DNA from: an uncultured Algibacter sp.
Lineage (GTDB): Bacteria; Bacteroidota; Bacteroidia; Flavobacteriales; Flavobacteriaceae
Reading direction: 5' to 3'
DNA length: 64,000 nt
NCBI RefSeq assembly: GCF_947490405.1
Contig: NZ_CANLGU010000004.1
Span: forward strand, 62,001 to 126,000
Below are positions 7,493-45,619 of the stretch, piece by piece. The first letter of the stretch is position 1; the number at the start of each line of letters is the position of its first letter. The notes under the pieces are model-generated. The model did not search any database, was not told the origin of the DNA, and worked only from the letters and a program-made list of their open reading frames with translations. The position numbers and the translations under genes were made by a program.

Positions 7493-7644
7493 TTGGGCGT
7501 TACCACAAGGGTCGGGCTTTACGTTATATCTTTTTAAAACGTCATTGTGAGGAGCTAGCGACGTCACAATCTGTTAAATTCAAGTTCAAAAGCAAATTTA
7601 TGGCTTACTTTTTTTAAAAAGGATGCCACTATAATCCCTAACGC
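7493..7644 (+). repeat. Dispersed frame repeat, copy R1
   Basis: It begins TTGGGCGTTACCACAAGGG and ends ATCCCTAACGC, the conserved ends of a family with seven copies in this window. Its core carries CGTCATTG...CAATCTG between TCTTTTTAAAA and TTTAAAAAGGA, as in copy R4. It occupies the gap between recQ and the converging accessory cassette. No coding potential is visible. Confidence 0.75.
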
Positions 7645-7712
7645 GGGCTAGTTTGCTAGCTTAATTTCTTGAACTATATTGGTTTTTTTTGGAAGAGTTC
7701 GTTTAACGTGTT

Positions 7713-35433: not shown

Positions 35434-35583
35434 TACACCCCTGTGGTCCCCTCAAGGGGACACTAGCTTACTGGAAAAGGAAAGGGTTTTGTTAAAAAAG
35501 TGTTTACGGTTAAAAATTAATAGAAAGAGATGGTTTTTTAAAGAGTATGAGTGATGTCCCCTTGAGGGGACTTTAGGGGTGTA
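35434..35583. mobile_element. MITE-like element with CCCCTCAAGGGG palindromic ends (left copy)
   Basis: Left end 35434-35462 (TACACCCCTGTGGTCCCCTCA then AGGGGACA, in two parts) and right end 35537-35581 face each other as inverted repeats with a 74-base interior. Each end holds the hairpin GTCCCCT-CA-AGGGGAC. The right end is identical over 45 bases to 36123-36167. Total about 150 bp. It borders the DUF559 pseudogene. Confidence 0.7.
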
Positions 35584-35587
35584 TTGA

Positions 35588-35956
35588 CTATAGATTTAAT
35601 AATTTTTCGCAAGTCTGCTCAATAACTAGCAAAACACTAAACATATTATTCTTTATATCTTCATTTGAAAATCTTAAAAACGTGACACCATAAGCCTCTA
35701 TCTCATCTTGTCTTTTTAAATCATACACATCATTGAAATCATGACTCTGTCCATCAATTTCAATAGCTAATTGTATTTCATGACAATAGAAATCAACAAT
35801 ATAATTTAGCATAGGAACTTGTCTATGAAACTGAACACCAAATGCTCATTGCTTGATTTTTTGCCATAAAAGTACTTCTGGAAGCGTGCTGTTTTTTCTT
35901 AATTGTCTAGCGCGTTCTTTTAGTTTTGGATTGTATGGAATGATTTTGTTTTTCAT
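35588..35956 (-). pseudogene. DUF559 (Vsr-like endonuclease) gene with one in-frame stop
   Basis: The full frame from ATG 35956 would encode 122 residues: KIIPYNPKLKERARQLRKN, LPEVLLWQKIK, then stop, then AFGVQFHRQ, VDFYCHEIQLAIEIDG, DEIEAYGVTFLRFSNEDI. This is the complete DUF559 layout, a PD-(D/E)xK/Vsr-like nuclease domain; the active-site E/D-x-D positions in IEIDG are retained. A TGA at 35846-35848 interrupts it in frame; both sides read on without shift. Either a nonsense mutation or a sequencing error. It lies between two palindrome-ended elements. Confidence 0.8.
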
Positions 35957-35997
35957 TTTTGAAAGATAAACTTTTTCTAAAAAATGAATAAGAATTT

Positions 35998-36167
35998 TAC
36001 ACCCCTAAAGTCCCCTCAAGGGGACATATGCTAACTCAAACGCAAAAGTTAAGATCTAATATTTAGTATGCTTTGCAATATATTTTTTTTGAAATTGTAG
36101 ATTTCTTTTGAAAAACAGTTTGTTTAAAGAGTATGAGTGATGTCCCCTTGAGGGGACTTTAGGGGTG
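35998..36167. mobile_element. MITE-like element with CCCCTCAAGGGG palindromic ends (right copy)
   Basis: Left end 35998-36027 (ACACCCCTAAAGTCCCC...) and right end 36123-36167, identical in the latter to 35537-35581. Interior of about 95 bases is unlike the left copy beyond the first dozen bases (GGACATATGCTAACT versus GGACACTAGCTTACT). Total about 170 bp. Together with the left copy it brackets the DUF559 gene. Confidence 0.7.
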
Positions 36168-36852: not shown

Positions 36853-36879
36853 AACTATTAGTTAAATCAAGACGAATTT

Positions 36880-36966
36880 GCGTTAGGGATTGCAGCGACA
36901 TCCTTTTTTGCCATTAAAAGCAAAAAAGATATAGCGTAAAGCCCGACCCTTGCGGTAACGCCCAAA
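36880..36966 (-). repeat. Dispersed frame repeat, copy R3
   Basis: GCGTTAGGGAT at the left and CCCGACCCTTGCGGTAACGC at the right. It is the shortest copy, with an AT-rich core. It lies between the divergent aquaporin and DUF2911 genes. Confidence 0.7.
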
Positions 36967-37992: not shown

Positions 37993-38152
37993 TTGGCGTT
38001 ACCCACAAGGGGTCGGGCTATCCGTTATAATCTTTTTAAAACGTCATTGCGAGTAGCGAGCGATGTTGCAATCTGTATAATCTAGTTTCCAAACCTAAAT
38101 TTATAGTTCGTCAATATCTTTAAAAAGGATTTCCTCTGCTATCCCTAACGCG
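37993..38152 (+). repeat. Dispersed frame repeat, copy R4
   Basis: It begins TTGGCGTTACCCACAAGGGG and ends ATCCCTAACGC. The core CGTCATTGCGAGTAG...GCAATCTG between TCTTTTTAAAA and TTTAAAAAGGA is closely like copy R1. It lies between converging DUF2911 and Gfo/Idh genes. Confidence 0.75.
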
Positions 38153-38179
38153 CTTGTTTGCCAAGGTTGTTTTTATAAA

Positions 38180-45406: not shown

Positions 45407-45462
45407 TGGTGGTTTCTATTATTTAAAAATGAAATTTTAATGTTGAAATATAGTTAGCCTTT

Positions 45463-45619
45463 GCGTTAGGGATTGTAGTGGAAATCCTTTTGCTTTTCTG
45501 TAAATAGATTAGAGACTTTTTGATTAGGCTATGTGTTTGTTAGTGGATTCCTGCCTTCGCAGGAATGACAAAAAGCAAAAGATTGTAGCGGAAAGCCCGA
45601 CCCTTGTGGTAACGCCCAA
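45463..45619 (-). repeat. Dispersed frame repeat, copy R5
   Basis: GCGTTAGGGATTGTAGTGG at the left and CCCGACCCTTGTGGTAACGC then CCAA at the right. The core contains a hairpin TTCCTGCCTTCGCAGGAA, unlike other copies, and repeats TTGTAGCGG. It lies upstream of corA on the same strand side. Confidence 0.75.

Follow-up and report, generated by a model that had tools for sequence, protein, structure and literature searches.

The question raised by this locus is what kind of genetic unit places a small nuclease gene between two short elements that end in inverted copies of one palindrome. The locus lies at positions 35434-36167 of a 64,000-nucleotide stretch of DNA from an uncultured Algibacter sp., the whole of which is referred to here as the window. 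It is probably a decayed copy of a mobile-element family that combines triplex-type ends with a DUF559 nuclease of the Vsr/I-Bth0305I fold. More broadly, and more tentatively, DUF559 proteins, including YcjD of Escherichia coli, may supply the mobility enzyme that the BoxC/triplex-motif repeats have so far lacked. The repeats would then form a class of mobile element present in several phyla: a Vsr-like nuclease would read the DNA triplex or hairpin end, and break repair would spread the units, in some cases in frame across conserved host genes.

Two short units and four palindromes

The palindrome CCCCTCAAGGGG, of the form GTCCCCT-NN-AGGGGAC, occurs as four exact copies in the window (at 35448, 35558, 36012 and 36144), where 0.05 copies are expected by chance in 64 kb; four copies were reached in none of 100 shuffles. 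Searches of the 3.69-Mb genome with CCCCTCAAGGGG, and also with GTCCCCTNNAGGGGAC, found no exact copies beyond these four. The ends that carry them are intergenic in the window, and the locus is laid out as follows.

35434-35462, minus strand: left short unit, outer triplex-type end (third block, 3 nt, hairpin; the purine strand is the minus strand); third block 6/6
35463-35554, no strand: left short gene-less unit, 92-nt core (inter-arm distance); the whole unit folds with z -6.7
35555-35583, plus strand: left unit, gene-facing triplex-type end; third block 6/6
35588-35956, minus strand: DUF559 (PF04480) nuclease gene, broken by an in-frame TGA at 35846-35848; an intact relative occupies the same site in G009, of the same genus
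35998-36027, minus strand: right short unit, gene-facing triplex-type end, the perfect inverse of 35554-35583; third block 6/6
36028-36139, no strand: right short gene-less unit, 112-nt core (inter-arm distance)
36140-36167, plus strand: right unit, outer triplex-type end, with 45 nt identical to the left unit's gene-facing end; third block 6/6

An earlier note on this DNA had described two elements with inverted palindromic ends that share 45 identical bases, and this description was borne out. Positions 35534-35581 and 36120-36167 agree at 98% of 48 nt, the last 45 being identical, and over 30 nt the arms at 35554-35583 and 35998-36027 complement each other without a mismatch. As single-stranded DNA, both units are predicted to fold strongly (z -6.7 for 35434-35583 and z -6.2 for 36010-36157), none of 200 shuffles being as good in either case.

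The DUF559 nuclease

A Vsr/DUF559 nuclease gene had also been placed between the two elements. The assignment stands, with a match to PF04480 of 1.5e-29 over profile positions 2-108 of 109, but the gene is not intact, since a single in-frame TGA interrupts it. The Pfam entry for DUF559 gives its function as unknown. An AlphaFold2 model of a Winogradskyella copy, built on an alignment of 55 rows, reached a pLDDT of 91.8, and its top matches among solved structures were 3hrl, an endonuclease-like protein, and 3r3p, the homing endonuclease I-Bth0305I. Both were also recovered by a profile search, and Vsr (1vsr) was a weaker fold match (E 0.13). The catalytic fold is held in common with I-Bth0305I (Vsr/EDxHD homing endonuclease). 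Residues D55, E66, D68 and H72 are invariant across 55 DUF559 proteins and, by analogy with the superfamily, are the putative catalytic residues.

Comparison of coding sequences indicates that the nuclease is under purifying selection, with a median dN/dS of 0.06 and a maximum of 0.13 among the 46 of 77 pairs with finite dS, pairs that are not independent. VsrA of Caulobacter, which contains a DUF559 domain, is reported to trigger an SOS response in a methyltransferase mutant (PMC12907096); a member of the DUF559 family can thus harm DNA in vivo. A role as defence gene was considered and rejected, the PADLOC matches being weak only (best E 0.001).

Association of hairpins with DUF559 genes

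The earlier note proposed a nuclease-associated repeat family analogous to RAYT/REP, and hairpins were indeed found to adjoin DUF559 genes in the genus, in the family and in other phyla. Ten DUF559 matches occur in the genus, in 4 of 10 genomes, and all ten genes have hairpins, nine of them on both sides. A larger set consisted of the best 79 matches from genome contigs, among which close relatives dominate; seven with less than 600 bp of flank were left out, and 72 loci were counted. At 65 of these 72 loci one or both sides of DUF559 had a hairpin no more than 500 bp away, compared with 11 of 272 control placements, and both sides had one at 35 of 72, compared with 0 of 272. No perfect-stem hairpin was seen on at least one side at 37 of the 72, and on both sides at 7; the perfect-stem scan overlooks degenerate ends, the one in E. 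coli included, and all these hairpin counts are therefore lower bounds. Around these genes, hairpin density fell from 4.1 and 2.9 per kb in the two 250-bp bins next to the gene to 0.15 or less at distances above 1 kb. In the family, 5 of the 30 best-scoring loci were without a hairpin or too short, and 1 of the 30 was left out as too short.

At the level of whole genomes, 17 of the 66 family genomes that have DUF559 contained GTCCCCTNNAGGGGAC, compared with 3 of the 133 that lack it (p 7e-7), G022, whose best DUF559 match has an E of 2.3e-10, being counted among the latter. The reversed pattern, used as a control, occurred in 2 of 199 genomes, as against 20 of 199 for the true pattern. Distances from palindrome to DUF559, which had been suggested as a check, agree with the proposed association: all 4 palindromes of this genome lie within 1.5 kb of a DUF559 gene, as do 14 of the 21 found in the genus and, among the 78 places listed for the family sample, 21, with about 0.002 expected by chance per place. 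The other 57 of the 78 listed are far from DUF559, as expected of dispersed copies. Palindromes also occur without a full DUF559 gene in G165 (ten copies) and G007 (one copy), as would be expected if the nuclease dies before its repeats.

A third block and the layout of triplex motifs

The ends had been taken for hairpins; the palindromes and the strong folding agree with this, but plain hairpins they are not. About three bases beyond each window hairpin stands a further block that mirrors the purine arm (AGGGGAC-TTT-AGGGGTG). Scored over six positions for G*G, A*A and T*A triads, this third block reached 6/6 in all four window ends. The DUF559 genes of the best 79 relatives have 162 hairpins at distances of up to 500 bp, of which 144 scored 6/6, compared with 3.2% after shuffling of the flanks; for hairpins more than 1 kb from DUF559 the count was 9 of 18. 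The block was likewise found in 24 of 31 hairpins of the genus set (1.6% in shuffles), in 27 of 57 hairpins of the family loci (5.6% in shuffles) and in 23 of 31 hairpins of the plasmid panel described below.

To judge from their sequence, the ends carry the layout of the intrastrand-triplex motifs known as BoxC, PIT or TM. All four window ends have three consecutive triad-capable blocks, a stem of 6-15 and loops of 1-6, as triplex motifs are defined in the sections of PMC4666352 drawn on here; in those sections, triplex formation in vitro, as single-stranded DNA, is reported for the E. coli sequence only. The third block, the break in the gene and the published names BoxC, PIT and TM had all escaped the earlier note.

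The orientation of the third block differs among sets of loci. In copies inside LeuRS, MetH and RecG it points away from the gene (15 ends vs 0, 16 loci), in free-standing DUF559 genes it mostly faces the gene (67 vs 20 ends, 71 loci), and in an N-terminally fused set it always does so (13 vs 0 ends, 8 loci). The gene-facing and outward layouts are circular permutations of one repeat array, and both are seen, at their published positions, in the E. coli TMECO pairs 1+2 and 17+18. A variant end was also observed, in which a second hairpin (GATTTC...GAAATC or AATTCC...GGAATT) separates the purine arm from the mirrored third block (L006, 1405-1465; L007, 1307-1375 and 1859-1924).

Arm class and nuclease lineage

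The sequence of the arm varies by lineage, with GTCCCCT, CCCCCTT, CCTCCCT, CCCCTCT and CTCCCCT as examples. On a nuclease tree of 66 labelled rows, which has few columns and many open forks, the distribution of ten arm classes needed 16 changes, compared with a mean of 32 (minimum 27) when the arm labels were shuffled and 25 (minimum 22) when they were shuffled within families. The rows derive from the best 79 relatives, after 4 of 79 with short frames and then 9 of 75 unlabelled ones were left out. As far as the alignment resolves it, arm class tracks the nuclease tree. Inheritance of the locus as a whole would give the same trend, and the match is thus read as co-inheritance and not as recognition.

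Occupied and empty sites

Empty sites, a further check that had been suggested, turned up both for the unit at the window locus and for one in recG. At the former site G000 and G009 carry the unit, and G002, G004 and G007 have the empty site. In G009 (L008, 1185-2440) the unit there has expanded into a hairpin array with a spacing of about 188 bp, on one side of the intact DUF559 gene. In recG, a DUF559 unit of about 450 bp is present in G003 and G004, and the gene is uninterrupted in 8 of 10 genomes.

At the E. coli sites, where the direction of gain or loss is not readable, the hrpB-mrcB pair is missing in both genomes compared, with about 14 bases there instead. The lldD-trmL pair is absent in one strain and a remnant is kept in another. 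At alx-sstT, L197 is without one hairpin of the pair, and in L198 (E. coli COL60J) the place of the K-12 TMECO pair is taken by some 300 bp of unrelated DNA that includes a hypothetical gene; the lldD-trmL and alx-sstT alignments do not read as clean insertions. Loss as well as gain shapes these sites, as the hairpin missing from L197 indicates and as Holder et al. hold.

No target-site duplication, as looked for in insertion sequences and MITEs, was evident at the two readable junctions, recG and E. coli hrpB-mrcB, where bases were replaced instead (about ten empty-site bases in recG, by eye); the window site is too diverged for this comparison. The replacement of some ten to fifteen target bases, with no clean duplication, is easier to reconcile with break repair or template switching than with a cut-and-paste transposase.

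Copies in frame within host genes

In the family sample, 31 of 98 DUF559 matches (E <1e-21) lie within open frames of at least 300 aa. From their flanks, the 30 best-scoring family loci were read as LeuRS (11), HemD (5), MetH (3), HisD (1) and free-standing (10); the eleven LeuRS cases occupy one place and need not be independent. Pfam confirmed six host proteins, namely one each of LeuRS, HemD, MetH and HisD, together with RecG and a PLP-dependent protein that we read as threonine-dehydratase-like. The ends are found in frame within recG and LeuRS of relatives, whereas E. coli TMECOs are said, in the sections of PMC4666352 used here, to be always intergenic.

Other phyla and Escherichia coli

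A plasmid panel was made up of 13 of the 43 records that match E. coli YcjD, one per genus, leaving out records of Klebsiella, Neisseria, Pseudomonas, Lelliottia and E. coli and three unlisted ones. A pyrimidine-armed hairpin stood within 300 bp of DUF559 at 12 of the 13 loci, compared with 3 of 26 shifted controls. The positive genera were Azospirillum, Sphingomonas, Shinella, Sinorhizobium, Methylobacterium, Sphingobium, Qipengyuania, Photobacterium, Picosynechococcus, Synechocystis, Pseudanabaena and Deinococcus; the Thermoactinomyces locus had no such hairpin within 300 bp. On plasmid pGJ3-1 of Photobacterium sp. GJ3 (L186), 13 more pyrimidine-armed hairpins were seen in 5.4 kb outside the near flanks, and this DUF559 locus may lie within a dense hairpin array.

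In E. coli K-12, the DUF559 gene ycjD occupies 1351407-1351760, and TMECO no. 9 is placed at 1351204-1351239 by the published table (PMC4666352), the gap between them being 168 bp. By eye, what looks like a degenerate inverted partner of TMECO 9 overlaps the end of ycjD. The chance that a given gene adjoins a TMECO is below 1% (18 regions with two neighbours each, about 4,300 genes), ycjD having been compared with TMECO 9 only. Sequence similar to the ycjD-side motif is present in 5375 of 5426 E. coli genomes, at a median of 18 places.

A possible mechanism and its alternatives

In the mobile family proposed here, each end would consist of a pyrimidine arm, a short loop, a purine arm, about three bases and a mirroring purine block, often in inverted pairs some 100-200 bp apart, and the short non-autonomous copies would be pairs of ends without the gene. 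Recognition of the end, cutting by DUF559, the copying step and spread driven by the nuclease are steps that we infer. The nuclease would recognise the end once it has folded, which would be simplest where replication leaves a strand unpaired, and nick beside it; break repair would then carry a copy of the pair of ends elsewhere, either alone or together with the gene. Where the gene dies, as at the window locus, the repeats would persist as orphans.

It might be argued that DUF559 is a passenger carried between repeats that owe their spread to another enzyme, or whose origin and variation reflect replication errors at triplex motifs. The distant majority of the listed palindromes (57 of 78), the orphan copies of G007 and G165 and the instability to which Holder et al. 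tie the motifs (PMC4666352) speak for this reading; it is nevertheless unlikely, given that DUF559 is the regular partner in several phyla, that arm class tracks the nuclease tree, that the nuclease is under purifying selection and that the one Y1 transposase match in the genome is a broken copy located on a different contig. As sources of the palindromes, chance and ordinary transcription terminators can be dismissed almost entirely. One terminator-like site was scored (36145-36165), but shuffles yield 0.4 such sites, chance predicts the 0.05 palindromes given above, the motif stands within translated recG and LeuRS frames, which disposes of the terminator alternative raised by the earlier note, and the E. 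coli motif is without terminator activity according to the introduction of PMC4666352.

Two further readings give the nuclease another task. DUF559 could be a Vsr-type repair enzyme acting on T:G mismatches after cytosine methylation, with the repeats as by-products of cutting or local instability. The SOS response caused by Caulobacter VsrA in the methyltransferase mutant (PMC12907096) and the weaker fold match to Vsr (1vsr) favour such a role, which we consider very unlikely because it leaves unexplained the lineage-matched inverted ends on both sides, the in-frame copies inside other genes and the patchy presence in 4 of 10 genomes of one genus. Alternatively, DUF559 could be a homing endonuclease that cuts alleles lacking the unit and gains entry to them through homologous repair, the repeats serving only to mask the site or bind the enzyme. 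I-Bth0305I is the one named and characterised enzyme of the two closest solved matches, and the fixed-place in-frame copies in LeuRS and recG resemble homing sites; homing seems highly improbable all the same, as the units are found at many unrelated and mostly intergenic places, the gene-less copies are dispersed, unlike site-specific homing, and no intron or intein was identified (a gathering-level Rfam search of the window returned Flavo-1 only, with no Rfam family at the unit ends).

Relation to known systems

BoxC/PIT/TM motifs share with the present units three blocks in a row, inverted pairs and several copies per genome (PMC4666352, sections used here), and E. coli TMECO 9 itself adjoins a DUF559 gene. 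They differ in that no partner gene is named in those sections, where mobility genes are stated never to have been found beside triplex motifs, while DUF559 is the partner here, and in that the DUF559 units are found in frame as well as between genes. As in REP/REPIN-RAYT systems, short palindromic ends in inverted pairs flank a nuclease gene, gene-less copies occur and the arm is tied to the gene lineage; however, the DUF559 enzyme is PD-(D/E)XK/Vsr-like, whereas RAYT is HUH/Y1, and the DUF559 ends have a third, mirrored block. A RAYT/HUH partner was rejected for the window locus, the partner there being DUF559 and the only Y1_Tnp match of the genome being broken and elsewhere.

I-Bth0305I (3r3p) is alike in fold and has remote sequence similarity, but the DUF559 units have triplex-type ends and lie at many unrelated sites without an identified intron or intein. 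Rickettsia palindromic elements also occur as palindromic units in frame in protein genes; no nuclease is named for them in the available part of PMC3733652, whereas the DUF559 units carry one. Caulobacter VsrA likewise belongs to DUF559 and elicits a DNA-damage response in vivo, and it differs in having been proposed as a mismatch-repair enzyme (PMC12907096). DUF559 beside repeats is announced in no title or abstract opening of papers naming DUF559, a survey of mainly open literature that does not establish absence from print.

The origin of the E. coli motifs was called unclear in PMC4666352. A regular partner gene, of which ycjD of E. coli K-12 is one copy, makes the origin of triplex motifs directly testable in a laboratory strain, and it suggests a cause, itself open to test, for the spread of repeats for which none had been available. 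If the proposed reading is true, DUF559 would gain a role, and there would be a route by which conserved proteins acquire in-frame nuclease inserts.

Flavo-1 (RF01705) matches four times in the 64 kb, at 7506-7653 and 38007-38158 on the minus strand and at 36875-36952 and 45452-45606 on the plus strand. Two of the four are less than 2 kb from the DUF559 unit, and Flavo-1 itself has the look of a dispersed repeat.
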